Source of the DNA: an uncultured Bradyrhizobium sp.
Lineage (GTDB): Bacteria; Pseudomonadota; Alphaproteobacteria; Rhizobiales; Xanthobacteraceae
Assembly (NCBI RefSeq): GCF_947648125.1
Contig: NZ_CANSMR010000003.1
Location: 1 to 64,000 of the forward strand
Reading direction: 5' to 3'
Length of the DNA stretch: 64,000 bases
This document shows positions 8,798-26,757 of this stretch, piece by piece. Every line of letters begins with the position of its first letter. Position 1 is the stretch's first letter. A program made the position numbers and the translations under genes. Below the pieces are notes generated by a model. That model worked only from the letters and a program-made list of their open reading frames with translations, was not told where the DNA came from and did not search any database.

Positions 8798-8827
8798 CGT
8801 TTGTATACGATCATTCGTATACAAACG
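8798..8827. promoter_or_regulatory. Double GTATAC palindromic operator between fpr and enamidase
   Basis: A perfect inverted repeat: 13-base arms (8798-8810 and 8815-8827) around TCAT. It contains two GTATAC cores (8803-8808 and 8817-8822), spaced 14 bases apart. Each core is flanked by TTT or TTC on one side, giving TTYGTATACRAA-like sites. The same core with the same flanks recurs at 21171 and 21302 in front of the other nicotinate genes. Such symmetry suits a dimeric GntR- or MarR-type repressor. Confidence 0.75.
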
Positions 8828-8833
8828 AATAAT

Positions 8834-8859
8834 CCGGCTTGATCCGAAAGTCAAGCCGG
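8834..8859 (+). repeat. Hairpin in the enamidase leader
   Basis: A 9-base-pair perfect stem, CCGGCTTGA (8834-8842) with TCAAGCCGG (8851-8859), and an 8-base loop, between the operator and the enamidase start. There is no T-run, so it is not a terminator; a leader-stability or translational role is possible but unproven. Confidence 0.5.
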
Positions 8860-8907
8860 GCTCAAATTCCCGGGCAATTTCGGAAAGAAGACAGAAGGAA
8901 AACACCC

Positions 8908-10104
8908 ATGGCTCACGACGCGCCCCAGGCCACCGGCCCCAGCAAGCTGGTGATCCGCAATATCGGGCTACTGCTGTCGGGGGCACTGGAAAGGCCGATC
9001 CTGGATGCCGATACCATCGTCGCCGAGAACGGCAAGATCACCGCGATCGGCCGCTTCAAGGACGTCGACACCGAAGGCGCCACCACGACCGTCGATGCCA
9101 ACGGCACGACGGTCGCGCCCGGCCTGATCGACAGCCACGTCCACCCCGTCGCCGGCGACTGGACGCCGCGGCAGAACCAGACCAGCTGGATCGACAGCTA
9201 TCTGCATGGCGGCGTCACCACCATGATCTCCGCGGGCGAAGTGCATATGCCCGGCCGGCCGCGCGATGTGGTCGGGTTGAAGGCGATGGCGATCTTCGCG
9301 CAGCGCGCGTTCTGGACGCTGCGGCCGGGCGGCGTGAAAGTGCATGCCGGCGCACCCGTGATTGAGTGCGAGATGGTCGAGGACGATTTCAAGGAAATGG
9401 CCGCCGCCGGCGTCAAGCTGCTCGGCGAAGTCGGGCTCGGCGGCGTCAAGGACGGCCCGACCGCGCGCAAGATGGTCGGCTGGGCACGCAAATACGGCAT
9501 TCAGAGCACGATCCACACCGGCGGTCCTTCGATTCCCGGCTCCGGCCTGATCGACAAGGACGTCGTGCTGGAAGCCGACACCGACGTGGTCGGCCACATC
9601 AATGGCGGCCACACCGCCCTGCCCGACGACCAGATCCGCTGCATCTGCGAGGGCTGCAAACGTGGTCTCGAGCTGGTGCACAACGGCAATGAGCGCTCGG
9701 CGCTGTTCACCTTGCGCATCGCGCGCGAGATGGGCGATTTGCATCGCGTCATCCTCGGCACCGATGCGCCGGCCGGCTCCGGCGTGCAGCCGCTCGGCAT
9801 CCTGCGGATGGTCTCGCTGCTGTCCTCGCTCGGCGAGCTACCCGCCGAGCTGGCATTCTGCCTTGCGACCGGCAACACCGCACGGATGCGCGAGCTCGAT
9901 TGCGGCCTGATCGAGGTCGGCCGTTCCGCCGATTTCGTGCTGATGGACAAGGCGCAGCATTCGCCGGGCAAAAACATCCTGGAGAGCGTCCAGCTCGGCG
10001 ATCTCCCAGGCATCGGCATGACCATCATCGACGGCATCGTCCGCACCCAGCGCAGCCGCAACACGCCGCCCGCAGGCAAGGTGCCGGAGATCGTGGCGAA
10101 GTAA
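8908..10104 (+). CDS. ena: Enamidase (6-oxo-1,4,5,6-tetrahydronicotinate hydrolase)
   Basis: A 398-residue amidohydrolase-superfamily enzyme that closely follows the Eubacterium barkeri enamidase. Shared features include an ISGD/LLSGAL-type N-terminus, DSHVH (H77, H79), LHGGVTTMISAG, GEVGLG with candidate bridging E174, IHTGGPSIPGS with H203, VGHINGG with H230, LGTDAPAG with D286, and the C-terminal SRNTPPA. The enzyme hydrolyses 1,4,5,6-tetrahydro-6-oxonicotinate, opening the ring to 2-formylglutarate with loss of ammonia. AAGGA lies eight bases before the ATG. A double operator and a hairpin lie upstream. The 6-hydroxynicotinate reductase that makes its substrate is encoded 10 kb downstream. 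Confidence 0.9.
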   Translation: MAHDAPQATGPSKLVIRNIGLLLSGALERPILDADTIVAENGKITAIGRFKDVDTEGATTTVDANGTTVAPGLIDSHVHPVAGDWTPRQNQTSWIDSYLHGGVTTMISAGEVHMPGRPRDVVGLKAMAIFAQRAFWTLRPGGVKVHAGAPVIECEMVEDDFKEMAAAGVKLLGEVGLGGVKDGPTARKMVGWARKYGIQSTIHTGGPSIPGSGLIDKDVVLEADTDVVGHINGGHTALPDDQIRCICEGCKRGLELVHNGNERSALFTLRIAREMGDLHRVILGTDAPAGSGVQPLGILRMVSLLSSLGELPAELAFCLATGNTARMRELDCGLIEVGRSADFVLMDKAQHSPGKNILESVQLGDLPGIGMTIIDGIVRTQRSRNTPPAGKVPEIVAK

Positions 10105-10124
10105 TCAGGTTCAACATCAGTCAT

Positions 10125-10378: not shown

Positions 10379-10530
10379 GCACCGGTTTGCTTTCACCCGT
10401 CATCATTGAGGTGTATCGTGCCGCCTTGCGAACCTAGCCGGCGGCGCTCGCGAGAGCCACGCGACGATTAAGTTCCTGCCGCATGCCGCCGTGCCGTGTT
10501 GGTCCACACCAGCAAACAGGAGGCAGCACA

Positions 10531-11931
10531 ATGACGATGAGGCCAGATCCCACGTTTCACGCGTCGCCGAAGCTTGCGATGGAAGCTCCGGCCGAGAACT
10601 TCGCCTACACCGTGCTGCTCAGCCCGGACTTTTCCAAGCCCGACGCGCTCGCCGTGATCGACGTCAAGCCGGGCTCGCCGACCTACAGCAAGATCGTCCA
10701 CACCGTGACGATGCCCAACAAGGGCGACGAGTTTCACCATTTCGGCTGGAACGCGTGTTCGTCGGCATTGTCCCCGCTTGCGGGCCATGCCTTCATCGAG
10801 CGCCGCTATCTCATCGTTCCCGGCATGCGGTCGTCGCGGATCTACATCATCGACACCAAGCCGGATCCGACGCAGGCCAAGATCCACAAGATCATCGAGC
10901 CCGAGGAGGTCTTCAGGAAGACCGGCTACTCGCGGCCGCATACCATCCATTGCGGCCCGGACGGCATCTACGTCTCGACGCTCGGCGGCGGCGGCAAGAA
11001 CGGCACCGATGGGCCGCCCGGCGTCTTCATCATGGACTGCGAGACCTTCGAGGTGCTCGGCCGCTGGGAGATCGATCGCGGTCCGCAGACCAAGCACTAC
11101 GACTTCTGGTGGAACCTGCCGCGCGACTACATGGTGAGCAGCGAATGGGCGCTGCCGCCGCAATTCGAGAACGGCATCGTGCCGGAGGACCTGCTCTCGA
11201 ACAAATACGGCCATCGCATCCACTTCTGGGATCTTCGCGCGCGACGCAATGTCCAGACCATCGACCTCGGCGCCAACCATCAGATGGCGCTGGAGGTGCG
11301 TCCCGCGCACGATCCGGTTCGCGAATACGGCTTCGTCGGCGTCGTGGTCGATACCACGAACCTCGAGGGCTCGATCTGGACCTGGTGGCGCGAGGGCGGC
11401 GAGTTTCACATCGAGAAGACGGCGACGATCCCGCCCGAGCCCGCGCCAAAGGACCAGCTGCCGCCGCTGCTGCAGGGTTTCGGCGCCGTGCCGCCGCTGG
11501 TGACCGACATTGACCTGTCGATGGACGACAGGTTCCTTTACGTCTCCTGCTGGGCCACCGGCGAGATGCGCCAATACGACGTCAGTGATCCGCGCAAGCC
11601 GAAGCTCGCCGGATCGGTGCGCATCGGCGGCATTGCCAGCCGCACCCCGCATCCCAATGGACAGGCATTTGCCGGCGGTCCGCAGATGGTCGAGATCAGC
11701 CGCGACGGCAAGCGGGTCTACTGGACCAATTCGCTGTACTCGACCTGGGACGACCAGTTCTATCCGCACGGCATTCCCGGCGCCGAGGTGATGGCGAATG
11801 CCGGCCCGGGCGGCGGCCTTGAACTGGCAAAGGACTACTGGGTCGGTCTCCCCGACGGATACCGCGCGCACCAGATCCGGCTCGACGGCGGCGACTGCTC
11901 GACGGATTCGTTCTGCTATCCATCGGCCTGA
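10531..11931 (+). CDS. mtoX: Methanethiol oxidase / selenium-binding protein (SELENBP1/MtoX family)
   Basis: A 466-residue beta-propeller of the SBP56 family. The proteins oxidise methanethiol to formaldehyde, sulfide and hydrogen peroxide (shown for human SELENBP1 and Hyphomicrobium MtoX). Family hallmarks are GDEFHHFGWNACSSA near residue 69, SRPHTIHCGPDG near 131, KYGHRIHFWDL near 227, and the ending SFCYPSA. Unlike Hyphomicrobium MtoX it has no export signal. AGGAGGCAG precedes the ATG. The stop codon lies three bases before a GTG-initiated membrane protein gene, suggesting a two-gene unit. Sulfide released here could be used by SoxF or by the sulfhydrylase at 26803 (inference). Confidence 0.88.
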   Translation: MTMRPDPTFHASPKLAMEAPAENFAYTVLLSPDFSKPDALAVIDVKPGSPTYSKIVHTVTMPNKGDEFHHFGWNACSSALSPLAGHAFIERRYLIVPGMRSSRIYIIDTKPDPTQAKIHKIIEPEEVFRKTGYSRPHTIHCGPDGIYVSTLGGGGKNGTDGPPGVFIMDCETFEVLGRWEIDRGPQTKHYDFWWNLPRDYMVSSEWALPPQFENGIVPEDLLSNKYGHRIHFWDLRARRNVQTIDLGANHQMALEVRPAHDPVREYGFVGVVVDTTNLEGSIWTWWREGGEFHIEKTATIPPEPAPKDQLPPLLQGFGAVPPLVTDIDLSMDDRFLYVSCWATGEMRQYDVSDPRKPKLAGSVRIGGIASRTPHPNGQAFAGGPQMVEISRDGKRVYWTNSLYSTWDDQFYPHGIPGAEVMANAGPGGGLELAKDYWVGLPDGYRAHQIRLDGGDCSTDSFCYPSA

Positions 11932-11933
11932 AA

Positions 11934-12602
11934 GTGAGTGCAGCCGACTGGACAGCGTCTTGGCTGTGGCTGGCGGTCATCGCGAGCGGCCTCTACCACG
12001 GGATCAACCCGGGCATGGGCTGGCCGCTCGCGGTTTCGGCCGGATTGATGCAGAGGAGTACGCGTGCGCTGCTGGCCGCGCTCGGCCCGCTCGCAATCGG
12101 TCACCTGCTGGCGATGCTGCTCGTGATCCTTCCCTTCGCGCTGCTGATCACCCTCGTCGAATGGCAGCGCTCGATCCGGATCGGCGCCAGCCTGCTTGTG
12201 ATCGCCTTCGGTATCTATCGGCTGATCGACCGGCGCCATCCGCGGGCCCTGGCGCGGATACCGCCGACGCAACTCGCCTTGTGGTCCTTCGCGGTGGCGA
12301 TCGCCCACGGCGCGGCGCTGATGCTGGTGCCGATCTATCTGGGACTATGCCGCGCGGCTGGGCCGGACCAAGGCCATACGGCCGCCACCACCCTGATCGA
12401 TACCAGCCTCACCATGGCCGTGCTGGTTGCCATCGTCCATGCCGGCGCAATGATCGCCGCCGGCGGATGTCTGGCGTGGCTGGTCTACCGCTATCTCGGT
12501 CTCGAATTCGTGGCCCGGAGCTGGTTCAATCTGGACACGGTTTGGGCCGTCAGCCTGGTGCTGGTCGGCGCCGTCGCGCTGGCGCTTGGTGTTGCGACAT
12601 AG
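11934..12602 (+). CDS. Multi-pass membrane protein of unknown function, coupled to methanethiol oxidase
   Basis: A 222-residue protein with about six hydrophobic segments. Helix 1 ends in LYHGINPGMGWPLAV and a later helix has AIAHGAALMLVPIYLG; the paired HG motifs in membrane segments resemble metal or small-solute permease folds, but no named family is certain. The GTG start two bases after the methanethiol oxidase stop implies co-translation. A role in copper supply or in export of a product is only a guess. A mosaic palindrome follows. Confidence 0.75.
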   Translation: MSAADWTASWLWLAVIASGLYHGINPGMGWPLAVSAGLMQRSTRALLAALGPLAIGHLLAMLLVILPFALLITLVEWQRSIRIGASLLVIAFGIYRLIDRRHPRALARIPPTQLALWSFAVAIAHGAALMLVPIYLGLCRAAGPDQGHTAATTLIDTSLTMAVLVAIVHAGAMIAAGGCLAWLVYRYLGLEFVARSWFNLDTVWAVSLVLVGAVALALGVAT

Positions 12603-12818: not shown

Positions 12819-13274
12819 TCACCGCAGCCTGCCGAGCAGCGCCATCAAGGTTTCGCGCTCCTTGGCGTCCAGCGGCGCCAGCGTCTCCCTGGAGATCACG
12901 AGCGCGTTCGGCGCGGCCTTATCGGCCATCTGCTGACCGGCGCGCGTCAGGCTCACCATCAGCCGGCGGCCGTCGTCGGGATCGGGCGAGGTCTCGGTCA
13001 GGCCGCGCGCGGTCAGGCGATCGATCACGCCCTTGATGGTCGCGACGTCCATCGAAGTCAGCCGCCCGAGCTGGTTCTGCGAGCAAGGGCCAACCTCCGA
13101 CAGCTTCGACAGCGCCGCCCACTGCGTCGGCGTCAGGTTGATGCCGATCTCGCGGGCGAAGATCACCGCATGGCGCTGCGACACCTGGCGCAGGATGAAG
13201 CCGATCTGCTCGTCCAGCACGTAGCCGGGCTTCGCCGCCTTGACGCTTCGCTTCTGTGCAGCACTCCTCGCCAT
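12819..13274 (-). CDS. MarR-family regulator, candidate repressor of the nicotinate genes
   Basis: A 151-residue winged-helix protein. The recognition region reads TPTQWAALSKL...CSQNQLGRLTSMDVATIKGVIDRL (about residues 48-86), followed by the wing DPDDGRRLMVSLT. It is the last gene of the long minus-strand operon that starts with 6-hydroxynicotinate reductase, 15 bases after livF. In Pseudomonas putida, the MarR-type NicR represses nic genes and responds to 6-hydroxynicotinate; equivalence is likely but inferred from family and place only. It is the only transcription factor in the cluster, so it is the first candidate for the GTATAC palindromes. Confidence 0.88.
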   Translation of the reverse strand: MARSAAQKRSVKAAKPGYVLDEQIGFILRQVSQRHAVIFAREIGINLTPTQWAALSKLSEVGPCSQNQLGRLTSMDVATIKGVIDRLTARGLTETSPDPDDGRRLMVSLTRAGQQMADKAAPNALVISRETLAPLDAKERETLMALLGRLR

Positions 13275-13289: not shown

Positions 13290-13994
13290 TTACAGCGACA
13301 GATGCGCGTCGCGGACATCCGGACGCGCATCAAGTTCCGCCATGGTGCCGCCAAAACAGATCCGGCCGCGCTCGATGATGTAGGCGCGATCCGAGATCAG
13401 CCGGGCGAAATGCAAATTCTGCTCGGAGACGACGATGCTGACGCCCTCTTTCTTCATCGCCAGGATCGCATCGACCATCTGCTCGACGATCTTCGGCGAC
13501 AGGCCTTCCGACGGCTCGTCGAGCAGCACCAGCGACGGATTGCCCATCAGCGTGCGCGCGATCGTCAGCATCTGCTGCTCGCCGCCGCTCATGCGCCCGC
13601 CGGGCCGGCCGCGCATCTCGCCGAGATTGGGGAACAGCTTGAACAGTTTTTCGCGGTCCCATTGCGGCGCGCCCGCCCGCTTCGGCTGGCGGCCGACCTC
13701 GAGATTCTCCTCGACCGTCAAGTCCGTGAAGATGCGCCGCTCCTCCGGCACGTAGCCGAGCCCGCCGCGCACGATCGCATGCGTCGGCAGCTCCGAAACG
13801 TCCCTGCCCTCGAACATGACGCGGCCGGAGCGGTTCTCGACCAGGCCGACGATGGAGCGGAACGTGGTCGACTTGCCGGCGCCGTTGCGGCCGAGCAATG
13901 CCACCACCTCGCCCTCGCCGACCTCGAGCGCGATGTCGAACAGGATATGCGCCGGGCCGTAGAAGCTGTTGAGGTCCTTCACCGTGAGCTTCAT
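13290..13994 (-). CDS. livF: ABC transporter ATPase, branched-chain type (LivF)
   Basis: A 234-residue ATPase: Walker A GRNGAGKS near residue 35, signature MSGGEQQ near 136, Walker B LVLLDEPSEGLSP near 156, and the LivF-typical VSEQNLHFA. Its ATG overlaps the livG stop by four bases (ATGA). With LivG and the fused permease it forms an importer. The position inside the nicotinate operon points to nicotinate or a derivative as substrate (inference). Confidence 0.93.
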   Translation of the reverse strand: MKLTVKDLNSFYGPAHILFDIALEVGEGEVVALLGRNGAGKSTTFRSIVGLVENRSGRVMFEGRDVSELPTHAIVRGGLGYVPEERRIFTDLTVEENLEVGRQPKRAGAPQWDREKLFKLFPNLGEMRGRPGGRMSGGEQQMLTIARTLMGNPSLVLLDEPSEGLSPKIVEQMVDAILAMKKEGVSIVVSEQNLHFARLISDRAYIIERGRICFGGTMAELDARPDVRDAHLSL

Positions 13995-14782
13995 GCCGAT
14001 GCTCCCTCGCGGTGCCGGGCGTCGTAGAGGAGGCCTTCGCCGAGATAGATCGCCCGCACCTGGGCGTTGCCGCGAACCTCCTCCGGCGAGCCTTCGGCGA
14101 TCAGCGTGCCGCGGTTCAGCACCAGGATGCGGTCGGCGTGCTCGAACACCACGTCCATGTCGTGCTCGGTGAAGAGAACACCGATCGACTGCTCGCGCGC
14201 GATCCGCGCCGTCAGCCGCATCAGCTCGACGCGCTCGCGCGGCGCCATGCCGGCGGTCGGCTCGTCCATCAACAGCAGCGTCGGCTGGTTGGCGAGCGCG
14301 ATCGCAAGTTCCAGCCGCTTGACGTCGCCATAGGCGAGCTCGCCGCAGGGCCGCTCCGCATAGGCGCCCATGCCGACCAGATCGAGCAGCCGCCCGGCCT
14401 CGTCGCGGGCCTGGCGCGCGGTCGAGGCCCACAGGTTGAACAATTGCCCGCCATGCGAGACCAGCGCGACCTGCACGTTCTCGCGCACCGTCATGGTCGG
14501 GAATGTCGCCGCGATCTGGAAGGTACGGCCGACGCCCATCCGCCAGATCACGCGCGGTTTCTTGCCGGTGGTCTCCGCGCCCAGCACGCGGATACGGCCG
14601 CTATCGGGAATGTTCTGGCCGTTGAGCATGTCGAAGCAGGTGCTTTTTCCGGCGCCGTTCGGCCCGATCAGCGCCAGGATCTCGCCGGCGCGCAGTTCGA
14701 ACGAGACGCCGCGCACGGCATGCACGCCGCCATAGGATTTGGTCAGCCCCTCGACCGACAGCAATGTTGGAACCATGCTCAT
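13991..14782 (-). CDS. livG: ABC transporter ATPase, branched-chain type (LivG)
   Basis: A 263-residue ATPase with Walker A GPNGAGKS near residue 38, the LivG-type long insertion after it, signature region CGELAYGDVKRLE near 151, Walker B LLLMDEPTAGMAP near 171 and the H-loop FTEHDMD near 207. Signature LAYGD replaces the usual LSYGQ, as is common in LivG proteins. The ATG at 14782 overlaps the permease stop (ATGA); a second ATG six bases inside is possible. Confidence 0.92.
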   Translation of the reverse strand: MSMVPTLLSVEGLTKSYGGVHAVRGVSFELRAGEILALIGPNGAGKSTCFDMLNGQNIPDSGRIRVLGAETTGKKPRVIWRMGVGRTFQIAATFPTMTVRENVQVALVSHGGQLFNLWASTARQARDEAGRLLDLVGMGAYAERPCGELAYGDVKRLELAIALANQPTLLLMDEPTAGMAPRERVELMRLTARIAREQSIGVLFTEHDMDVVFEHADRILVLNRGTLIAEGSPEEVRGNAQVRAIYLGEGLLYDARHREGASA

Positions 14783-16668
14783 TCGGCAGTCTCGATGCGG
14801 GAGGTGAGCAAAGGCGACGCCGCTGACGACGATTTACGCCGGCGATGCATGAGGGCATCCAGCGTGCCGACGATGCCCTTCGGGAAGCCGACCACAATCA
14901 GCACGACGAAGCCGCCGAGCACAAGTTTCGAGAGATCGGTCTGGCTGACCAGCCAGATGTTGAGCGCCTTGTAGACGATCGCACCGACCACCGCGCCCGA
15001 CACTGTCTCGACGCCGCCGAGCAGCACCATCACCAGCGCATCGACCGACAGCGAGATGCCCATATTGTCGGGGAAGACGCTGCCCTTGAGGTAGGCGAAC
15101 AGCGCGCCGGCAAGACCGGCGACCGTGCCCGCGATCACGAAGGCGGTCCACTGGATGCGCTTGCCGTTGATGCCGACGGCTTCGCTGCGCAGCGGCGAGT
15201 CGCGTGTGGCGCGCAGCGCGAAGCCGAACGGCGAGAACACGATGACGCGGAGGATCACGACCGCGAGCGCGGCGATGCCGAGCGACAGCCAGTAGAAATG
15301 CGACGGGCTCGCCGCCCATTTTTCCGGCCAGACACCGAGGATGCCGTTGTCGCCGCCGGTCACCGACACCCACTGGAATGCGATCGACCAGACGATCTGG
15401 GCGAAGGCCAGCGTCAGCATCGCGAAATAGACACCCGAGAGCTGCACCGCGAAGAAGCCGAACACGGCGGCGCCGAGCAGCCCGAGCAGCGGGCCGAGCA
15501 GCAGGCAGGCGATCATCGGCAAGCCGGCCATCTTGGCGAGCAGCGCCACACCATAGGCGCCAAGGCCGAAATAGGCGGCATGGCCGAACGAGGCGAGCCC
15601 GCCGACCGACATCAGGAAATGCAGGCTGACCGCGAAGATCACGAAGATCGCGATCTCCGAGCCGACGGTGAGCACGTAGTTGCCGGCGACGAACGGCAGC
15701 GCGGCGGCGACCACGAGCACGGCGATCGCGGCAAGCCGCTCATTCATTGTCAGCGGCCGCCACGGATTGACCGTGAGGCCCGGCGTACGCCGCGCCGGCG
15801 CTTCCGGCTTGCCGAACAGCCCCCACGGACGGACGATCAGCACCACCGCCATCACCAGGAACACCAGGATGATGGAGATCTTCGGGAAGATCAGGATGCC
15901 GAAGGCGTTGAGCTCCGACACCAGCACCGCCGCAACGAAGGCGCCGATGATGCTGCCGAGGCCGCCGATCACGACCACGACGAAGACCTCGACAATGACG
16001 CGCAGATCCATCGCGTGGTTGACCGCATCGCGCGGAATCTGCAGCGCGCCGCCGAGCGCGGCGAGGAAGACACCGAGCGCGAACACGCTGGTGAACAGCC
16101 ATTTCTGATTGACGCCGAGCGCGGCGACCATGTCGCGGTCCTGCGTCGCCGCGCGCACCAGCACGCCCCAGCGGGTGCGCTGGAACAACAGCCAGAGCAC
16201 ACCGAGCACGACCGGCCCGAGCACGATCAGGAAAAGATCGTAGCTCGGAATATTCTGGCCGAAGAAATCGATCGCCCCTTTGAAGCCCGGCGCCCGGCGG
16301 CCGACCAGATCGTCCGGCCCCCAGATCAGCACCACGAGGTCCTCGACCATCAGCGTGAGGCCGAAGGTGGCGAGCAGCTGGAACAGCTCCGGCGAATGGT
16401 AGATCCGCCGCAGCAGCACCATCTCGACCAACACACCGATCGCAGCAACCGCCAGCGCCGCGACGACGATGCCGCCCCAGAAGCCGAACGCGCCGGAAAA
16501 CCGCTCGGTCAGCGTGAACGCGACGTAGGCACCGAGCATGTAGAACGCGCCATGCGCGAAATTCACGATCCGCGTCACGCCGAAGATGATCGACAGGCCC
16601 GAAGCGACCAGGAACAGCGACGCCGCGCTGGCGAGACCGGTCAGGAACTGGACGACATAGAAGGCCAT
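14779..16668 (-). CDS. Fused LivH-LivM permease of a branched-chain-type ABC transporter
   Basis: One 629-residue polypeptide holds both permease subunits that are usually separate. Residues 1-290 match LivH (FGVTRIVNFAHGAFYMLGAYVA at the start, VVVVIGGLGSIIGA near 230). Residues about 310-629 match LivM (SVGGLASFGHAAYFGLGAYG near 353, GGVETVSGAVVGA near 550). There is no stop or frameshift between them. Fused LivHM permeases occur in other alphaproteobacteria. The binding-protein gene is 135 bases upstream, separated by an inverted repeat. Confidence 0.93.
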   Translation of the reverse strand: MAFYVVQFLTGLASAASLFLVASGLSIIFGVTRIVNFAHGAFYMLGAYVAFTLTERFSGAFGFWGGIVVAALAVAAIGVLVEMVLLRRIYHSPELFQLLATFGLTLMVEDLVVLIWGPDDLVGRRAPGFKGAIDFFGQNIPSYDLFLIVLGPVVLGVLWLLFQRTRWGVLVRAATQDRDMVAALGVNQKWLFTSVFALGVFLAALGGALQIPRDAVNHAMDLRVIVEVFVVVVIGGLGSIIGAFVAAVLVSELNAFGILIFPKISIILVFLVMAVVLIVRPWGLFGKPEAPARRTPGLTVNPWRPLTMNERLAAIAVLVVAAALPFVAGNYVLTVGSEIAIFVIFAVSLHFLMSVGGLASFGHAAYFGLGAYGVALLAKMAGLPMIACLLLGPLLGLLGAAVFGFFAVQLSGVYFAMLTLAFAQIVWSIAFQWVSVTGGDNGILGVWPEKWAASPSHFYWLSLGIAALAVVILRVIVFSPFGFALRATRDSPLRSEAVGINGKRIQWTAFVIAGTVAGLAGALFAYLKGSVFPDNMGISLSVDALVMVLLGGVETVSGAVVGAIVYKALNIWLVSQTDLSKLVLGGFVVLIVVGFPKGIVGTLDALMHRRRKSSSAASPLLTSRIETAE

Positions 16669-18046: not shown

Positions 18047-18631
18047 TTATCGCAATCCGTCTTCGCCCTTGACCTCGTCGACCGTCAACCCGCCAACGCG
18101 CGGCAGCGGCCGTCCGCTGTCGGTCACCGCCACCGCGACCATGATCTCGTTGGCCCGCGGCGCGTCGTTGATCTGCACCTCCATGCCGTCGAAATGGCTG
18201 CGCACGAAAGCCGCGTCCTTGTGCCCGAGCGGAATGTCCAGCGTGGTGCCGGGACCCGAGCGCTTCTTCGACGACGGGATCAGCGCCGCACCCTTGGAGA
18301 GCACCTTGCGCACCGGGGCGCCCATCTTCGGATGCAGGATCGCAGCCGCGTGCTCGAGTTCGCCATTCTCGCCGACCGCGGCGGCCTTGCCGTAGCTGTG
18401 CGCCCTGGCGCCGTCGATACCGAGCGCGGCGACTGCCCGCTTGGAAAGCAATTCGCCAAGTTCCTCGCCGATCGCGATCAGTGGCGACAGATCCTCGACA
18501 TAGCGGCCGGCAAAGGGATTTTCGATCACGGCGATCGCGGCGGCGCGCCGGGTCGGCGGTGCAATGGTCTTGCCCATCTCCAGATGGGTTTCCTCGACCA
18601 CGGTGACGATCTTGCGAATGACGGCGCTCAT
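18047..18631 (-). CDS. DUF1185 / 'amino acid synthesis' family protein
   Basis: A 194-residue protein of the PF06684 family, cytosolic, with the family segments VEETHLEMG near the N-terminus, ENPFAGRYVEDLSPLI and GKAAAVGENGELEHAAAILHPKMGAPVRKVL. No reaction is established for the family despite its name. The ATG at 18631 is preceded by GGGGAGCGAGG; an ATG at 18652, overlapping the UPF0280 stop, would add seven residues. It is locked into the 6-hydroxynicotinate reductase operon, which suggests a part in pyridine breakdown or in handling its ring-opened products (inference). Confidence 0.85.
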   Translation of the reverse strand: MSAVIRKIVTVVEETHLEMGKTIAPPTRRAAAIAVIENPFAGRYVEDLSPLIAIGEELGELLSKRAVAALGIDGARAHSYGKAAAVGENGELEHAAAILHPKMGAPVRKVLSKGAALIPSSKKRSGPGTTLDIPLGHKDAAFVRSHFDGMEVQINDAPRANEIMVAVAVTDSGRPLPRVGGLTVDEVKGEDGLR

Positions 18632-18648
18632 CTTGCCTCGCTCCCCGG

Positions 18649-19659
18649 TCATGCCTGCAGTATGTATTCTGTCGCTTTTGCCTGAAACGCGTGCGACGCC
18701 GGCGTCCCGTTCCCAGTTGCACCGACAAGGCGTGTTTCGCCCAGTAGACGCAATGCCGCGCCCTCGATCAATCCCGACGTCAGGAGGTCGCGCGCCCGCG
18801 CCGCCCCCGCCTCGAGCGCCTGCTCGATCTCATGTTCCGCCAGCGGCCCGACATCGCGGGTCACCAGCCGTGCGCCAAGATCGCTGTCGGGCTGCAATTC
18901 GCTCGCCGGAACGCGCAGGACCGCGGGATGATTGGGCAAATCGACCGCATTGGCGATCACGGTCGCGGCTGCATCGGCTTGCGACGCCGTCCGCGCCAGC
19001 ACGGTGACCGCATCGGCAATGCCGAGCGAGAAGCTGCGGCCGTGGCGGCCGCTGGTCGCGATGCCGCGGACCGGCATGTCGGCATCGACAGTCATGGTGC
19101 GCATCACGCCATGACTGTCCGGCCGGTCCATCAGACCGACGGTGAATTGCTCGCCATCGCCGAGATGCAGGGCGATGTCGCCGCCATTGTTGACATAGGT
19201 GCGGTCGAGCGTTGCCGCCTCCAGCATCGCGCCCAGGATTTCCTCGGCGACCGAGCCTGCGACCGCCGCCATCGGCGTGATGAAGCAGTCGGCGGCAAAC
19301 GGCGCGACCGCCGCATGCATGCGCCGCGCGACTACACCTCTCAGCGCGCAGCGCCGTGGATCGGCCGCACTGCGTAACTCGGCCAGTTCCGCGCAGAGTT
19401 CGTCAAGCAAGCCGGTGAAACGCTCCGCGGCCGCCTGATAAGCGGCACCGACGTCCGCATACCTGCCCTTGGCTTCAATGACCAGATCAATCGGGCCGTC
19501 CTGCAAATGCAGCCGCTTGCCGTCGGGAAGAAGCGCGATTTGCGGGAGCCTAGAGCCTTTTCCGTTCCGATGAAATCGGAACGGGGCTCTAGATTCTTGT
19601 TTTGACGCGTTTTCTTTGCGCGAACCGGTATCCACTTCGCTGGAAAACGCTTTAGTCAT
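18649..19659 (-). CDS. UPF0280 family protein with a repeat-derived N-terminus
   Basis: A 336-residue protein. From about residue 40 (PDGKRLHLQDGPIDLVIEAKG) it matches UPF0280, a family with an ApbE-like fold; conserved points include FITPMAAVAGSVAEEIL, YVNNGGDIALHL and GIATSGRHGRSFSLG. The last motif resembles the threonine/serine-rich flavin-transfer region of ApbE, but no activity is proven. The first 36 codons lie entirely in a palindromic repeat (19551-19653), so they are not ancestral family sequence. The ATG overlaps the upstream stop by four bases. The true start may be further in if the repeat is only spacer. Confidence 0.82.
   Translation of the reverse strand: MTKAFSSEVDTGSRKENASKQESRAPFRFHRNGKGSRLPQIALLPDGKRLHLQDGPIDLVIEAKGRYADVGAAYQAAAERFTGLLDELCAELAELRSAADPRRCALRGVVARRMHAAVAPFAADCFITPMAAVAGSVAEEILGAMLEAATLDRTYVNNGGDIALHLGDGEQFTVGLMDRPDSHGVMRTMTVDADMPVRGIATSGRHGRSFSLGIADAVTVLARTASQADAAATVIANAVDLPNHPAVLRVPASELQPDSDLGARLVTRDVGPLAEHEIEQALEAGAARARDLLTSGLIEGAALRLLGETRLVGATGNGTPASHAFQAKATEYILQA
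19551..19653. repeat. Palindromic repeat overlapping the 5' end of the UPF0280 gene
   Basis: Nested stems TAGAGCC/GGCTCTA (19551-19557 and 19585-19591) and CCGTTCCGAT/ATCGGAACGG (19562-19571 and 19575-19584, loop GAA). They are followed by TTCTTGTTTTGACGCGTTTT and CGAACCGGTATCCACTTCG, a module typical of rhizobial intergenic repeats. Here it is read through in frame at the start of the UPF0280 gene. Confidence 0.75.
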
Positions 19660-21104
19660 GCGCGCCGCCCCGGAAGATAAGGCATCGGCCGGACCTCGGC
19701 GCTGTCCCGCAGCGACGACAACGGCCGGACAAAATCCATATGTCCGCCGAGCGCCGCGTAGTCCGACAGCCGCATCGTGAATTCGATCGGCGCCACCAGC
19801 GCCGGCGTCGGCACGTAGCCGAAGGCGCCGGCCGGCATCTGCGTGACATCGACCATGAAGGTGATGCCGCCGCCCGGCCAGACATAGACCGGCGCGCCGC
19901 CGCTGGTCACCCGCGTCAACGCGTCTTTGACCGAGCGGGTCAGCCGCACCGGATTATCGGTCACGCCGGCGCGCAACGAGCCGCCCGCGCCGCCCATGAA
20001 CAGCACGGTGCACAGCGCCGGCTCGCAATTCTCCTGGATGCGCTCGACCGAGAATTTCAGGTCGGCAGGCATCTCGGTCTCGACCGGGTTTAGCGCCTCG
20101 TCGAGCACGTAATAAGAAGCATGCTCGCCAGTCGTCGAGACCATCAGCATGGTGAGCCCCGGCCGCGCTTCCTTGGCATTGAAGGGACCGAGGATCGACA
20201 GCGGATCGGAGATGTTGGTGCCGCCCCATCCGGTGCCGGGATCGGCGACCTGGAAATAGCGGCCGGGGGTCGAACGGCGCCCCTTCATCTTGATGCCGGT
20301 GTCGGCGATGTCGAGCAGCTTGCCGGCCTGGTGCTCGCTGAGCACCCCGGTGATATGATCGTCGACCACCACGACCTCATCGACCTTGCCGTGCCACTGC
20401 TTGGCGAACATGCCGATGGTCGCCGAGCCGCAGCCGACCCGCATCCGCTCTTCCGCCATGCCATTGACGATCGGCGGCTTGCCCGCCTGCACCACGACGG
20501 TGGCGCCGCCATCGATGGTCAGCTCCACCGCCTTGCAGTTGGAGAGATCCATCAGCGTGTCGCAGGTGACGCGGCCTTCCTTCTTGGAGCCGCCGGTCAG
20601 ATGATGCACGCCGCCGAGCGAGAGCATCTGCGAGCCATATTCGCTGGTCGTGACATGGCCGACCGCCTCGCCCTCCGCGCGGACGATCGCAGTCTCGGGA
20701 CCGAGATAGCGGTCGGTGTCGATCTTCAGCTTGACGCCGCAATAGGAGAAAATGCCCTCGGTCACCACGGTGACCATGTCGACGCCGTCGACTTCCGACG
20801 ACACGATGAAGGGCGCCGGCTTGTAGTCCGGATAGGTGGTTCCGGCGCCGATCGCGGTGACGAACAGTTCGGGCTGGCGGACGATCTTGCCGTCCCAGTC
20901 GCCGCTCGCCTGGAACGGCACCAGCTTGCCGCCGTGCGAGACCGTACGCTCCAGCACGACATGCGGATCGACGCGCACCAGCGTGCCGTCGTGATTGGCA
21001 TAACGGTCACATGCGCCGGCCGCGCCCGGCTTGATGTAGCACATCACCGGACAGGCATCGCAGCGGATCTTGTCGCCGGCGGCGACGGTCATTGTGTCAG
21101 CCAT
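19656..21104 (-). CDS. hnr: 6-hydroxynicotinate reductase
   Basis: A 482-residue protein assigned as the iron-sulfur flavoprotein that reduces 6-hydroxynicotinate to 1,4,5,6-tetrahydro-6-oxonicotinate with reduced ferredoxin (known from Eubacterium barkeri). The N-terminus holds C15-x2-C18-x3-C22 and C32 (CDACPVMC...CDRY), a probable cluster site. Glycine-rich MGGAGGSLRAGV and WPGGGITFMVD follow in the C-terminal half. The assignment rests on recognised family resemblance plus the enamidase and nicAB genes in the same cluster. ATG 21104 was chosen; a TTG at 21113 and an ATG at 21092 are alternatives. It leads an eight-gene operon, with a GTATAC palindrome 67 bases upstream. Confidence 0.85.
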   Translation of the reverse strand: MADTMTVAAGDKIRCDACPVMCYIKPGAAGACDRYANHDGTLVRVDPHVVLERTVSHGGKLVPFQASGDWDGKIVRQPELFVTAIGAGTTYPDYKPAPFIVSSEVDGVDMVTVVTEGIFSYCGVKLKIDTDRYLGPETAIVRAEGEAVGHVTTSEYGSQMLSLGGVHHLTGGSKKEGRVTCDTLMDLSNCKAVELTIDGGATVVVQAGKPPIVNGMAEERMRVGCGSATIGMFAKQWHGKVDEVVVVDDHITGVLSEHQAGKLLDIADTGIKMKGRRSTPGRYFQVADPGTGWGGTNISDPLSILGPFNAKEARPGLTMLMVSTTGEHASYYVLDEALNPVETEMPADLKFSVERIQENCEPALCTVLFMGGAGGSLRAGVTDNPVRLTRSVKDALTRVTSGGAPVYVWPGGGITFMVDVTQMPAGAFGYVPTPALVAPIEFTMRLSDYAALGGHMDFVRPLSSLRDSAEVRPMPYLPGRRA

Positions 21105-21170
21105 CGTGACCAAGCCTGGACTTGTGGCGGCGGTCGATCATACTGCGCTTCCGCCTCCCTGCCTATATCG

Positions 21171-21182
21171 TTCGTATACGAA
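21171..21182. promoter_or_regulatory. GTATAC palindrome upstream of hnr
   Basis: The perfect 12-base palindrome TTCGTATACGAA extends with one mismatch per arm to 20 bases (ATCGTTCGTATACGAATGAT, 21167-21186). It lies 67 bases before the hnr start codon in the divergent hnr/nicA region and shares core and flanks with the sites at 8798 and 21302. Confidence 0.75.
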
Positions 21183-21301: not shown

Positions 21302-21319
21302 ACGTTTGTATACAAACGT
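21302..21319. promoter_or_regulatory. GTATAC palindrome upstream of nicA
   Basis: The perfect 18-base palindrome ACGTTTGTATACAAACGT lies 63 bases before the nicA start. Its arm CGTTTGTATAC is identical to the outer arms of the double site at 8798-8827. Together with 21171 it gives each divergent transcript of this region its own site. Confidence 0.78.
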
Positions 21320-21381: not shown

Positions 21382-21849
21382 ATGCGCCTGACCGTGAACG
21401 GCAGGAATCATGATGTCGACGCCGCCCCCGACACCGCATTGCTTTACGTGCTGCGCAACGATCTCGAATTGAACGGACCGAAATATGGTTGCGGGCTCGG
21501 CGAGTGCGGTGCCTGCGCGGTGCTGATCGACGGCGTCGCCGCGCGCGCCTGCGTGATTCCGATCGAGGGTTGCGCCGGGCGCGACATCGTCACACTCGAA
21601 GGACTCGGCACGCGCGAGCATCCCGATCCGGTACAGGATGCCTTCATTCGCGAACAGGCCGCGCAGTGCGGCTACTGCCTCAACGGCATGATCATCACCA
21701 CCAAGGCGTTGCTGACGCGCAATCCCCATCCGTCCGAGCATGAGGTGCTGGAAGCGCTGCGCTACAATCTTTGCCGCTGCGGCGCGCATATCGAAATCGT
21801 CCGCGCGGCGATGCGCGCCGCTGGCCACGTGCTCGAGGCGCGCGATTGA
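21382..21849 (+). CDS. nicA: Nicotinate dehydrogenase small (2Fe-2S) subunit
   Basis: A 155-residue two-cluster ferredoxin subunit: C37, C42, C45, C57 for the plant-type cluster; C96, C99 and C131, C133 for the second. Length and pairing with a cytochrome-fused large subunit match NicA of Pseudomonas putida, which with NicB hydroxylates nicotinate to 6-hydroxynicotinate. The nicB ATG overlaps its stop codon by one base. A GTATAC operator lies 63 bases upstream. Confidence 0.9.
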   Translation: MRLTVNGRNHDVDAAPDTALLYVLRNDLELNGPKYGCGLGECGACAVLIDGVAARACVIPIEGCAGRDIVTLEGLGTREHPDPVQDAFIREQAAQCGYCLNGMIITTKALLTRNPHPSEHEVLEALRYNLCRCGAHIEIVRAAMRAAGHVLEARD

Positions 21850-24800
21850 TGACGGACGCACGGTCCTCAGAGCAACGCAAGCGCGGCTCGCTGTCAGTCG
21901 TTCGCCCCGCCGTGCTGGGCGCGGAAGGCGCGTTCGAGACCTTCATCACCATCACATCAGACGGTTCGGTCAATGCCTATAACGGCCACGTCGATCTCGG
22001 CACCGGCATCCGCACCGCGCTCGGGCAGATCGTCGCCGAAGAGCTCGACGTCTCCTTTGCCCGCGTTGTCGTGATCCTCGGCGACACCGCCGTGGTGCCG
22101 AACCAGGGCGCGACGATCGCGAGCGAGACCATCCAGATCACCGCCGTTCCCCTGCGCAAGGCCGCCGCGCAGGCGCGGCATTTCCTGCTTGCCCGCGCGG
22201 CCGAACGACTCGAATTGCCGGCCAATGATCTCACGATCGAGGACGGCCTGATCCGCGGCCACGACAACCGCAGCGTCAGCTATGGCGAGCTGATCGCGGA
22301 TGAGACCATCCGGCTCGAGCTTGCCGACGACGTTGCGGTCAAGGCCGTCAGCGCCTATTCCGTCGTCGGACAGTCGGTGCCGCGCGTCGACCTGCCGGCC
22401 AAGGCCACCGGCGAACTCGTCTACGTCCACGATGTGCGCGTACCCGGGATGCTGCATGGCCGCGTCGTCCGTCCCCCTTACGCCGGCGTCGATGCCGGAC
22501 CGTTCGTCGGCACCAGCCTGATCGCGGTTGATGAAGCTTCGGTGCGCGACATCCCCGGCCTCGTCGCGGTGGTGCGGATCGGCGACTTCGTCGGCGTCGT
22601 CGCCGAGCGCGAGGAGAACGCGATCAAGGCCGCCGCGCAGCTCAAGGTGAGCTGGAAGCCGGGACCTGTTCTGACCGACCTCTCCGACATCGAGAAAGCG
22701 CTGCGCGCCAATCCGTCGACGCCGCGCCAGCTGATCGACAGAGGCGACGTCGATGCCGCGATCAAGGCGGCGGCCAAGCCGATGCAGCGGACTTATGTCT
22801 GGCCCTACCAGATGCACGGCTCGATCGGCCCGTCCTGCGCGGTTGCCGACTACGGAGACGGAGCAATCCGGGTCTGGTCCGGCACGCAGAACCCGCACAT
22901 CCTGCGCGGCGATCTGGCGCTGTTGGTCCAGCGGCCGGAATCCGAGATCGACGTGATCAGGATGGAAGCCGCCGGCTGCTACGGCCGCAACTGCGCCGAC
23001 GACGTCAGCGCAGACGCGCTGCTGCTGTCGCGTGCGGTCCGCCGCCCGGTGCGCGTCCAGCTCACCCGCGAGCAGGAACATGCGTGGGAGCCGAAGGGCA
23101 CCGCGCAGCTGATGGACGTCAATGGCGGGCTCAATACCGACGGCAGCGTCGCCGGCTACGACTTCGTTGCGCGCTATCCCTCGAACGGCGCGCCGACCTT
23201 GGCGCTGCTGCTTACCGGGCGGATCGCGCCTGAAGCTGCGGTGTTCGAGATGGGCGACCGCACCGCGATCCCGCCCTACGACTACGAAAATCTGCGCGTC
23301 GTCGCCAACGACATGCCGCCGATCGTGCGCGCCTCCTGGCTTCGCGGCGTTTCGGCGCTGCCCAACACGTTCGCGCATGAATCCTATATCGACGAGCTTG
23401 CCGCCGAGGCCGAGGTCGATCCGATCGAGTACCGGCTGCGTTATTTGAAGGACAAGCGCGCGATCGATCTCGTCAACGCGGTCGCCGAGCGCGCCGGCTG
23501 GACGCCGCGCCCGGTGTGGAAAGAGCCCGAGGCAGACGGCGATATCGTGCGCGGCCGCGGCTTTGCCTATGCGCTTTACGTGCACAGCAAGTTTCCCGGC
23601 TACGGCGCGGCATGGTCAGCCTGGATCGCCGACGTCGCCGTCAACAAGACGACCGGCGATGTCAGCGTGACCCGCGTCGTCGCCGGGCAGGATTCCGGGT
23701 TGATGATCAATCCGGAGGGCGTGCGGCACCAGATCGAAGGCAATGTGATCCAGTCGACCAGCCGCGCGCTGATGGAGGAAGTCTCGTTCGAGCGCGGGGC
23801 GGTGACGGCAAGGGAATGGGGTGCCTATCCCATCATCAAATTCCCCGAGCTGCCCGAGATCGATGTGCTGATGCTGCCGCGGCAGGATCAGCCGCCGCTC
23901 GGCGTCGGTGAATCCGCCTCGGTGCCGAGCGCGGCCGCGATCGCCAATGCGATCTATGATGCGACCGGCGTGCGCTTTCGCGAGCCGCCGTTCACACCGG
24001 AACGCATTCTAAAGGGACTGCACGGAGAGCAGCCCGTGGCGCCTGCGGCGCTTCCCTCACCCGCTCCGCCGGCTGACCTCAGCAGGTGGCAGAATCCCTT
24101 CGCCAAGCGCGGTGGCGTGCTCGCCGGCATTGCGGCGCTCTGCGCCGCGGCGATCGGGATCGGTGCCGCCGTGCTGCCGTGGCGCGCGATCGCGCCGATC
24201 GCCCGGCCGGATGCCTCGGTCTATTCCGCCGCGACGATCGCGCGCGGCAAGGAGCTTGCGGCACTCGGCGCTTGCGCCGTCTGCCACACCTCGGAGCATG
24301 GCATCGTGAACGCCGGCGGCCGACCGCTCGAGACGCCGTTCGGCACCGTCTACACGACCAACATCACGCCCGATATCGACAGCGGCATCGGCTCCTGGTC
24401 CTACCCCGCCTTTGAGCGCGCAATGCGCGAGGGCATTCATCGCGACGGCCGCCATCTCTATCCGGCGTTCCCATACACGCATTTTGCCAGGACCAGTGAT
24501 GCCGACCTGCAGGCGCTCTACGCCCATCTGATGGCGCAGACGCCGGTGCGCGCCGAGACGCCGGCCAACACGCTCGCCTTTCCGTTCAACCTGCGGCCGC
24601 TGCTCGCGGGTTGGAATGCGCTGTTCCACCAGCCGCAGCCATTGCAGCCCGATCCATCGAAGTCGGCGATCTGGAATCGCGGCGCCTACCTAGTCGAGGG
24701 GCTCGGCCATTGCAGCGCGTGTCACTCGCCGCGCAATGCGCTCGGCGCCGAGCGGCAAGGCGCCTATCTCGCCGGTGGCTTCGCCGAGGGCTGGGAGGCG

Positions 24801-25391
24801 CCGGCGCTGACGTCGCTGTCCAAGGCGCCGATCCCCTGGAGCGAGGACGAGCTGTACGCCTATCTGCGCAGCGGCGAGTCCCGCTTGCACGGTGTCGCCG
24901 CGGGCCCGATGGCGCCGGTCGTGCAGGAGCTCGCCGCGCTGCCCGATCAGGACATCCGCGCGATGGCGGTCTACCTCGCCTCGTTCAACGAGACCGCCGA
25001 TCGGCCCGCGCATGATGCCTTGGCTGCCAAGCTCGAAGCCGCCACGGCCGTCGCCACCGCTGCCTCGGCGGGCGCGCGGATCTATCAGGGCGCCTGCGCC
25101 GTCTGCCACGAGGTCGGCGGCCCGCCGCTGTTCGGTAGCCGGCCGTCGCTGGCGCTGAACAGCAATCTGCACAGCGACGCCCCCGACAATCTGATCCAGG
25201 TGATCCTGCACGGCATCGCCAAGCCGGCCGTGACCGATCTGGGCTACATGCCGGCCTTCAAGGACAGCATGAGCGACGGCCAGGTCGCCGAGCTCGCCTC
25301 CTTCCTGCGGCAGCAATTTGCCCCGGGCAAGCCGGCCTGGACCGATGTCGCCGCCACGGTCGGCCGTATACGGCAGACCATAGCGCGCTGA
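21849..25391 (+). CDS. nicB: Nicotinate dehydrogenase large subunit: Mo domain fused to three cytochrome c domains
   Basis: An 1180-residue fusion matching P. putida NicB in length and order. Residues 1-740 form the molybdopterin-binding hydroxylase, with GVGES at 685-689 giving the catalytic E688. A single hydrophobic segment near 755-778 should anchor the protein. Three c-haem sites follow: CAVCH at 809-813, CSACH at 955-959 and CAVCH at 1083-1087. Electrons from nicotinate hydroxylation would thus go through the haems to the respiratory chain rather than to NAD. In the P. putida enzyme the haem part faces the periplasm. The start at 21849 overlaps nicA (TGATG). Confidence 0.92.
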   Translation: MTDARSSEQRKRGSLSVVRPAVLGAEGAFETFITITSDGSVNAYNGHVDLGTGIRTALGQIVAEELDVSFARVVVILGDTAVVPNQGATIASETIQITAVPLRKAAAQARHFLLARAAERLELPANDLTIEDGLIRGHDNRSVSYGELIADETIRLELADDVAVKAVSAYSVVGQSVPRVDLPAKATGELVYVHDVRVPGMLHGRVVRPPYAGVDAGPFVGTSLIAVDEASVRDIPGLVAVVRIGDFVGVVAEREENAIKAAAQLKVSWKPGPVLTDLSDIEKALRANPSTPRQLIDRGDVDAAIKAAAKPMQRTYVWPYQMHGSIGPSCAVADYGDGAIRVWSGTQNPHILRGDLALLVQRPESEIDVIRMEAAGCYGRNCADDVSADALLLSRAVRRPVRVQLTREQEHAWEPKGTAQLMDVNGGLNTDGSVAGYDFVARYPSNGAPTLALLLTGRIAPEAAVFEMGDRTAIPPYDYENLRVVANDMPPIVRASWLRGVSALPNTFAHESYIDELAAEAEVDPIEYRLRYLKDKRAIDLVNAVAERAGWTPRPVWKEPEADGDIVRGRGFAYALYVHSKFPGYGAAWSAWIADVAVNKTTGDVSVTRVVAGQDSGLMINPEGVRHQIEGNVIQSTSRALMEEVSFERGAVTAREWGAYPIIKFPELPEIDVLMLPRQDQPPLGVGESASVPSAAAIANAIYDATGVRFREPPFTPERILKGLHGEQPVAPAALPSPAPPADLSRWQNPFAKRGGVLAGIAALCAAAIGIGAAVLPWRAIAPIARPDASVYSAATIARGKELAALGACAVCHTSEHGIVNAGGRPLETPFGTVYTTNITPDIDSGIGSWSYPAFERAMREGIHRDGRHLYPAFPYTHFARTSDADLQALYAHLMAQTPVRAETPANTLAFPFNLRPLLAGWNALFHQPQPLQPDPSKSAIWNRGAYLVEGLGHCSACHSPRNALGAERQGAYLAGGFAEGWEAPALTSLSKAPIPWSEDELYAYLRSGESRLHGVAAGPMAPVVQELAALPDQDIRAMAVYLASFNETADRPAHDALAAKLEAATAVATAASAGARIYQGACAVCHEVGGPPLFGSRPSLALNSNLHSDAPDNLIQVILHGIAKPAVTDLGYMPAFKDSMSDGQVAELASFLRQQFAPGKPAWTDVAATVGRIRQTIAR

Positions 25392-25452
25392 CCTGCCATG
25401 TTCCGCCCGATACCCACTGGGCGGGCGGCGCCCGGCAGGCTAAGGTTCCCGC

Positions 25453-26757
25453 ATGACCGTGACAGATATCGCGACCCGGACCTACAACCACGGCTGGCGG
25501 CTCGACCCGATCGTGCGCAGCCTGCTGGACACCGATTTCTACAAGCTGTTGATGCAGCAGATGATCCGGGAAAGCTATCCGGACACGCGCACGACCTTTT
25601 CGGTGATCAACCGGTCGACCCATATCCGGCTTGCCGAGGTCATCGACGAGGGCGAGCTGCGCGCCCAGCTCGACCACGCCCGCACCATCCGCTTCACCAA
25701 GAAGGAACTGATCTGGCTCGCCGGCAACACGTTCTACGGCAAGACCCAGATGTTCTCGCCCGATTTCATCAACTGGCTTTCGAACTTCCGCCTGCCCGAA
25801 TACGAGCTGTACAAGGTCGACGGCCAGTATGAGCTGCACTTCCACGGGCCGTGGACCCACACCACGATGTGGGAGATCCCGGCACTCGCGATCCTCAACG
25901 AGCTGCGCTCGCGCGCCGCGACCAAGACCTACGGCCGCTTCGCGCTCGACGTGCTTTACGCCCGCGCCAAGGCCAAGCTGTGGGCCAAGGTCGAGCGGCT
26001 GCGCAAGCTGGACGGCTTGCGGTTGTCCGATTTCGGCACGCGCCGCCGCCACGGCTTCCTCTGGCAGCGCTGGTGCGTCGAGGCGGTGAAGGAAGGCCTC
26101 GGCCCGTCCTTCACCGGAACGTCGAACGTGCTGCTCGCGATGGACAACGACCTCGAGGCGATCGGCACCAACGCGCACGAGCTGCCGATGGTGGCCGCCG
26201 CGCTCGCCAACGACGACCAGGAGCTGCGCTGGGCGCCCTATCGCATCCTCGACCAGTGGCGCCACGCCTATGGCGGCAACCTCCTGATCGCGCTGCCCGA
26301 TGCGTTCGGCACCAAGCCGTTCCTGCGCGATGCGCCGGACTGGGTCGCCGACTGGACCGGCTTTCGTCCCGACAGCGCACCGCCGATCACCGCCGGCGAA
26401 GAGATCATCAAGTGGTGGAAGCAGAAGGGCCGCGACCCCAAGGAGAAGCTGCTGGTGTTCTCCGACGCGATGGACGTCGGCTCGATCGAGGAGACGTTCC
26501 ACCACTTCAAGGGACGCGTGCGCGTCAGCTTCGGCTGGGGCACCAACCTCACCAACGATTTCGTCGGCTGCGCGCCCGATGGCACCGCCGAACTCGATCC
26601 GATCTCGATCGTGTGCAAGGTGACGTCAGTCGACGGACGCCCGGCCGTCAAACTCTCCGACAATCCGGAGAAGGCGACCGGCATCCCGTCCGAGGTCGAG
26701 CGCTATTTGCGCGTGTTCGGCAATGTCGGCCGTGTCCGCACCGCAGTTCACGTCTAA
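25453..26757 (+). CDS. pncB: Nicotinate phosphoribosyltransferase
   Basis: A 434-residue cytosolic enzyme that joins nicotinate to phosphoribosyl pyrophosphate, feeding NAD salvage. Family marks are [15 protein letters not shown] near residue 24, [10 protein letters not shown], the catalytic-histidine region RRRHGFLWQ near 200, [20 protein letters not shown], and [15 protein letters not shown]. It starts 61 bases after nicB on the same strand, so the same imported nicotinate can go to catabolism or to NAD synthesis. Whether it is cotranscribed with nicAB is uncertain. Confidence 0.95.

Follow-up and report, generated by a model that had tools for sequence, protein, structure and literature searches.

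How does an Fe-S reductase of anaerobic type obtain its electrons and its cofactor in an aerobe? This question, which can be tested, is raised by a nicotinate gene cluster in an uncultured Bradyrhizobium sp. with an assembly size of 8.57 Mb. Contig 3 of that assembly was analysed over its first 64 kb (the window). A first-pass annotation had placed genes for nicotinate dehydrogenase (NicAB), 6-hydroxynicotinate reductase (Hnr), an enamidase (Ena), a Liv-type transporter, a MarR-family regulator and nicotinate phosphoribosyltransferase (PncB) between positions 8798 and 26757, and all of them are encoded there. The best overall explanation, to which we give a probability of about 0.85, is that the cluster encodes the aerobic reductive nicotinate pathway in its Bradyrhizobium form. 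The basis for this conclusion is gene identities, conservation, co-occurrence, the distribution of an operator-like palindrome, and the predicted fold of a UPF0280 protein. From these we infer every activity, the path of the electrons, the role of UPF0280 in maturation, and MarR as the operator-binding protein together with its ligand.

Enzymes of the predicted route

The core pathway can be assigned with great confidence. Ena (8908-10104, plus strand) matches the solved enamidase of Eubacterium barkeri (2vun) over its whole length (E 5.3e-107; residues 35-418 of a 421-residue open reading frame (ORF) against residues 2-385), and is predicted to hydrolyse 1,4,5,6-tetrahydro-6-oxonicotinate to 2-formylglutarate and ammonia. 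NicA (21382-21849, plus strand), with Fer2_2 and Fer2 domains, is the subunit of nicotinate dehydrogenase that carries two [2Fe-2S] clusters. NicB (21849-25391, plus strand) is the Mo-binding subunit, fused to a three-haem cytochrome c (MoCoBD and Cytochrom_C domains). A single predicted membrane helix at residues 757-775 joins the Mo part to the cytochrome, CxxCH motifs lie at residues 809, 955 and 1083, and the protein has matches to two subunits of the membrane aldehyde dehydrogenase 8gy3, the large one and the cytochrome one. The combination of Mo domains, helix and three CxxCH motifs suggests that NicB belongs to a cytochrome-linked nicotinate hydroxylase.

Hnr (19656-21113, minus strand) is assigned as a putative 6-hydroxynicotinate reductase from annotated relatives and a published homologue. 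Relatives 66-74% identical to it occur on 26 of 72,556 plasmid records (12 from Sulfitobacter and 4 from Rhizobium), and in 17 of these 26 they are annotated as 6-hydroxynicotinate reductase. The published homologue, that of strain SG-6C, is 42% identical to the E. barkeri enzyme according to the sections on the cluster in PMC3511419. Searches with Hnr returned nothing from Pfam at E 0.001 or from the PDB at E 1. When 16 family members were scanned against Pfam, the matches were all weak (most commonly GCV_T_C, in 15 of the 16; best E 0.0022), and we did not use them. We draw no conclusion on the fold of Hnr from an AlphaFold model built with 44 sequences, which has a mean pLDDT of 59.8 and for which Foldseek returned no PDB match at E <=0.001.

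We propose that nicotinate is imported by the Liv-type transporter, all of it encoded on the minus strand: a LivF-type ATPase (13290-13994, a position set by homology within the ORF 13290-14432, which has the Pfam ABC_tran match), a LivG-type ATPase (13991-14782), a fused LivH-LivM-type permease (14779-16668) with two BPD_transp_2 stretches, and a periplasmic substrate-binding protein (16804-18018; Peripla_BP_6; 3i45, E 6.8e-154). NicAB would hydroxylate nicotinate to 6-hydroxynicotinate, and its three c-type haems would hand the electrons on to the respiratory chain. Hnr would reduce the ring to 1,4,5,6-tetrahydro-6-oxonicotinate, and Ena would open it with release of ammonia. The ring-opened product would be completed by enzymes encoded elsewhere, by a glutarate route if the analogy with Azorhizobium holds.

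An E. barkeri gene cluster for nicotinate fermentation was reportedly described by Alhapel in 2006. Hnr and the enamidase are common to that organism and the cluster described here. In contrast, the E. barkeri dehydrogenase has four subunits (3hrd) and is only partly similar to NicB, which here carries three haems for respiration. E. barkeri ferments 2-formylglutarate. In Pseudomonas putida, a NicAB-type hydroxylase is followed by an oxidative route through NicC and NicX, whereas Hnr and Ena take that place in the window. The proposal that an aerobic first enzyme is joined to reductive ring opening holds up: a cytochrome-linked Mo hydroxylase is encoded with Hnr and an enamidase.

This hybrid is already known, because the same cluster and the same reading were published by Shettigar et al. 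2012 (PMC3511419), whose sections on the cluster cover Azorhizobium caulinodans ORS571 (AZC_2804-2790) and three Bradyrhizobiaceae, B. japonicum USDA110 (blr3818-blr3830), R. palustris HaA2 and SG-6C. According to those sections, SG-6C grows on nicotinate and 6-hydroxynicotinate, with transient 6-hydroxynicotinate, and the reductive route is reported for Azorhizobium and for SG-6C, for the latter from its genes. As in the window, each published cluster brings together the first three steps, an ABC transporter and two conserved proteins of unknown function. Nothing essential differs; genes for an SBP56 protein and a membrane protein are inserted here. Neither FNR (ferredoxin-NADP(+) reductase), nor operators, nor UPF0280 by name is mentioned in the text of those sections. 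The aerobic reductive route predicted for the window is supported as the one reported biochemically for Azorhizobium.

The pathway itself has reportedly been known biochemically since about 1990, through work of Kitts in 1989 and 1992. Beyond it, we infer from sequence a shared operator, a role for FNR, clues to UPF0280 and an alternative mode of ring opening. Two further points of the first-pass annotation need revision. The cluster is not an acquired island, since Hnr was found in 24 of the 25 genomes of the genus that were searched (the source genome counted) and GC content is flat across the window, with base composition unchanged. Nor is the gene set full: no step after Ena was recognised in the cluster, and the likely gene for electron supply, fnr, lies to the left of position 8798. 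Genes for decarboxylation of 2-formylglutarate, for oxidation to glutarate or for glutaryl-CoA formation were not recognised among the ORFs at 7962-28882, to which this search was confined. The suggestion that the cluster includes members with no assigned step was sound, and UPF0280 and AA_synth (DUF1185) are those members.

A shared operator-like palindrome and the probable electron supply

The palindrome TTYGTATACRAA is common to two divergent intergenic regions, fnr-ena and hnr-nicA. It has three exact sites in the 8.57-Mb genome, and all are in the cluster: one between ena and fnr (8814-8825) and two between hnr and nicA, of which one precedes hnr (21171-21182) and the other nicA (21305-21316). 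The first is paired with a site that has one mismatch (8800-8811). The window therefore holds four sites at <=1 mismatch, against 0.03 expected; as a control, the pattern read backwards matched the genome once on each strand.

We also examined 84 related loci, comprising the best 80 of at least 592 relatives on genome contigs (all at least 71% identical) and 4 of the 26 plasmid hits. Their flanks are no longer than 10 kb, or 14 kb in plasmids, and a gene described as absent is absent from the stretch covered. Thirty-two of the 84 are named Bradyrhizobium, so the loci are not independent. The palindrome occurs at 66 sites in 45 of these loci, where ~0.04 would be expected at an assumed 65% GC. 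An operator that is unique genome-wide names the members of the regulon, and fnr is among them.

The regulator gene in the cluster (12819-13274, minus strand; Pfam MarR; 2nnn, E 1.8e-47) presumably encodes the natural binder of TTYGTATACRAA, and MarR is the probable repressor of the regulon. Bound to the palindrome, it would repress hnr-upf0280-aa_synth-liv-marR, nicAB(-pncB), ena and fnr until released by a pathway intermediate. A precedent is BpsR, a MarR protein of Bordetella, which 6-hydroxynicotinate releases from DNA. The cluster MarR is homologous to BpsR (6pcp) over nearly its full length (E 1e-21). Of the four contacts to 6-hydroxynicotinate given for BpsR in PMC6837509, three are retained (Tyr15, Arg26 and His32, as Tyr18, Arg29 and His35), and His23 is replaced by Phe26.

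What would supply Hnr with electrons? The fnr gene (7962-8735, minus strand) is divergent from ena and shares its operator region; its product matches solved FNRs by phmmer (best 6rr3, E 3e-116). It was overlooked when the span was set at 8798-26757. The genes named for that span do lie inside it, but the unit starts further left, and position 8798 is just ahead of the palindrome pair at 8800-8825. FNR is encoded in 35 of the 84 related loci; of the 45 that have Ena, 32 have FNR <=3 kb away from it. Elsewhere it adjoins Hnr (in a Comamonadaceae plasmid and in locus L107), UPF0280 (in Kaistia, L082) or NicB (in Neorhizobium). In a tree of 34 FNRs, from which most Bradyrhizobium copies and every copy of <220 residues were left out, the cluster copies form at least three groups that are separate and well supported, with non-cluster copies in between, and the window copy stands apart from other copies of the genus. 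FNR thus looks like a regulon member. Its repeated linkage in varied arrangements, together with the shared operator, suggests that NADPH, FNR and ferredoxin would be the route by which low-potential electrons reach Hnr, and we regard this supply as likely.

Several observations count against such a unified picture. The palindrome was not found in 39 of the 84 related loci; 34 of these are the more distant ones (L081 onward, with Hnr <=84% identical), which may use another sequence. A second FNR copy, 63% identical, is encoded elsewhere in the genome. Furthermore, in ten Ena loci for which at least 2 kb is covered on each side, FNR is absent from the 3 kb around Ena (in three more the stretch is too short), and of 16 genomes searched, one that has Hnr (G178) gave no FNR hit at E 1e-40. 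Hence, FNR linkage is not general.

UPF0280 as a probable partner of Hnr

The UPF0280 (COG2122) gene (18649-19659, minus strand) lies beside hnr, and this pairing is nearly constant among the relatives. Among 398 genomes, UPF0280 and Hnr occur in the same 32 and are adjacent in all 32, with 8 to 542 bases between the match ends. These distances are taken from match coordinates, the two Hnr pieces of genome G056 being merged as one span. In none of the 366 genomes without Hnr does UPF0280 exceed the family cut-off by which it was counted; two further genomes matched below the cut-off. In the related loci, Hnr adjoins UPF0280 on the same strand in 81 of 84. The arrangement is far beyond chance, and the 32/32 partnership singles out UPF0280 as the probable helper of Hnr. 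Among the papers listed by full-text searches, whose coverage leaves out many journals, none was seen to link UPF0280 to nicotinate.

What might such a helper do? Structure prediction gives UPF0280 the fold of ApbE flavin transferases. Residues D229 and T233 are invariant in 35 of 35 UPF0280 sequences, and a weak, below-cut-off match to PF02424 (E 2.2e-4) equates them with the Asp/Thr pair of the ADxxxT motif, which belongs to the metal site of ApbE. The E. barkeri Hnr contains covalent flavin and Fe-S. We consider it somewhat probable that UPF0280 is a maturation factor of Hnr, which would install or load flavin or another cofactor. That it attaches a flavin covalently is a more tentative suggestion. 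Equally tentative is a wider proposal, in which UPF0280 would represent a previously unrecognised ApbE branch for the maturation of redox enzymes of anaerobe type. In Proteobacteria it would be dedicated to Hnr, whose flavin it would load or attach covalently without the HxxDP and acceptor motifs of ApbE, and the same logic would connect it with its DUF39 partners in methanogens and sulfate reducers. If UPF0280 matures Hnr and the FNR of the regulon feeds it, the two together would explain how an enzyme known from a strict anaerobe runs in air-breathing soil bacteria.

The strongest alternative is that UPF0280 handles the trafficking of sulfur or Fe-S, or serves Hnr as a structural subunit, and is not a flavin loader; we place its chances somewhat below even. 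ApbE flavin transferases are marked by an HxxDP motif, and their partner proteins by the acceptor motif D..[ST]GA[TS]. HxxDP is present in 0 of 35 UPF0280 sequences and the acceptor motif in 0 of 44 Hnr sequences, so that the pair differs in both respects from the transferases 4xdr (Ftp) and 7esa (FmnB). In the same 44 Hnr sequences, four N-terminal cysteines and those at 184, 228 and 363 are invariant. Trafficking or structural roles have been proposed for relatives of UPF0280 that act together with DUF39 proteins in methanogens and Desulfovibrio: in D. vulgaris, homocysteine formation with DUF39 requires COG2122, for which persulfide modification or the trafficking of sulfur has been proposed. 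Homocysteine synthesis itself was rejected as the role of UPF0280 here, because no DUF39/HcyS match was found in the genome.

A maturation role for UPF0280 also has to accommodate evidence of other kinds that tells against it, beside the missing motifs. Two ordinary ApbE proteins are encoded in the genome. Three of the 84 loci (L083, L088 and L107) lack UPF0280 beside Hnr, the UPF0280 match holds a stop in one of the 32 genomes (G424), and Hnr is split over two frames in another (G056). In L083 (Acidisphaera) and L107, the 21-kb stretch around Hnr has no UPF0280; L083 keeps AA_synth, and L107 keeps FNR and MarR.

Variation in the pathway and neighbouring genes

The enzymes predicted to act before and after Hnr are less constant. 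Among the 84 loci, the hydroxylase is a cytochrome-type NicB in 50 and of the FAD type in 22; none has both and 12 have neither. Ena is found in 41 of the 56 loci of at least 20 kb, HyuAB in 6 (with one overlap) and neither in 10. The locus with both has a HyuA of another subtype (about 42% identical). Since hydroxylase and ring opening vary, Hnr and UPF0280 form, on sequence grounds, a nearly constant core, of which the window is read as the variant with NicAB-cytochrome plus Ena.

HyuAB may replace the enamidase for ring opening in some relatives. Seven loci (L114, L118, L121, L124, L125, L178 and L180) have HyuA linked to Hnr and no enamidase in the stretch, with HyuB matched in all except L180. 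This apparent swap of Ena for the ATP-dependent HyuAB predicts that two chemistries open the same reduced ring. According to PMC11033972, six-membered lactams are opened by oxoprolinases of this family. The window has a HyuA/HyuB pair of its own (51083-54782), near a periplasmic binding protein (49583-50830). We rejected this pair as part of the pathway, both because its HyuA shares only 36% identity with the Hnr-linked HyuA from Neorhizobium (L125) and because it lies about 24 kb from PncB.

Could Hnr instead belong to a module that reduces hydroxylated pyridine carboxylates in general, and sit with nicotinate genes here by chance? The two types of hydroxylase and the varying ring opening are consistent with this possibility. 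So is the absence of an Ena match at E 1e-30 from 14 of the 32 Hnr genomes (best four candidates per genome scored), so that in some of them Hnr may act on a different substrate or be paired with another ring-opening enzyme. Four of the 14 were inspected: in G206 and G178 the gene group with Hnr also encodes an Hnr-linked type of HyuA, and G313 and G372 have neither HyuA nor Ena within 20 kb. However, the operators, NicAB, Ena and PncB of the window point to nicotinate, as does the growth of SG-6C, which has the same cluster, on nicotinate and 6-hydroxynicotinate (PMC3511419, sections on the cluster). We therefore regard a general reducer as unlikely and retain the nicotinate pathway as the role of the module in the window. 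Oxidative degradation by way of NicC, with Hnr and Ena as accessories, shares NicAB and a MarR regulator with P. putida, but is very improbable, given that no NicC-like gene was recognised in the ORFs scanned at 7962-28882 (no genome-wide search for NicC/NicX was made) and that the reductive route is the one reported for Azorhizobium and, by gene inference, for SG-6C in the sections of PMC3511419 cited above.

AA_synth (18047-18652, minus strand; PF06684, E 1.4e-74; 2qtp, E 3.8e-88) is the other member with no assigned step. It follows UPF0280 in 72 of the 75 loci with room for it. Two copies are present in 31 of those 72, and the window holds one copy, of the second type. AA_synth is found in 31 of the 32 Hnr genomes and in 28 of the 366 others. 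Only two of the 398 genomes have an Ena relative (41-42% identical) and no Hnr, and in both AA_synth directly precedes that relative. Many polar residues are invariant in 109 AA_synth sequences. Our best guess is that AA_synth would act around the ring-opening step. A relationship to cyanuric acid hydrolase/barbiturase (AtzD) was rejected on sequence, with an hhalign probability of 0.1 for the 109 AA_synth sequences against 20 proteins from PF09663 loci.

Hnr-UPF0280 pairs at 74-78% identity also occur in metagenome-assembled genomes named Acidobacteria (L091, L096, L097, L098, L102, L106 and L108). The hydroxylase in these loci is divergent from NicB, and transfer between phyla and binning error are both possible.

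Between ena and marR lie an SBP56 (methanethiol-oxidase-like) gene (10483-11931) and an ORF (11934-12602) for a membrane protein with four predicted helices. SBP56 is next to the MarR gene in 5 of the 84 related loci, all Bradyrhizobium. Ena is seen past SBP56 in one of the five, and the other four stretches end before Ena. Because SBP56 is confined to these five loci, we rejected both genes as core pathway members; they look like an insertion in a Bradyrhizobium subclade. PncB (25453-26757, plus strand; NF003704, E 1.6e-150) is encoded in 17 of the 84 loci, whose flanks vary in length; it was likewise rejected as a core member and is regarded as an optional neighbour.

Directly to the left of fnr is a sulfur-oxidation group (2328-7875) that encodes a flavocytochrome c sulfide dehydrogenase, a cytochrome c, SoxY, SoxZ and SoxA, and within it a second protein that binds molybdenum cofactor (2328-4544). 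Further to the right, a single ORF of 1120 residues (36660-40022) combines biotin carboxylase, biotin-carrier and carboxyltransferase domains, and has GMC oxidoreductase, P450 and FMO-like genes nearby.

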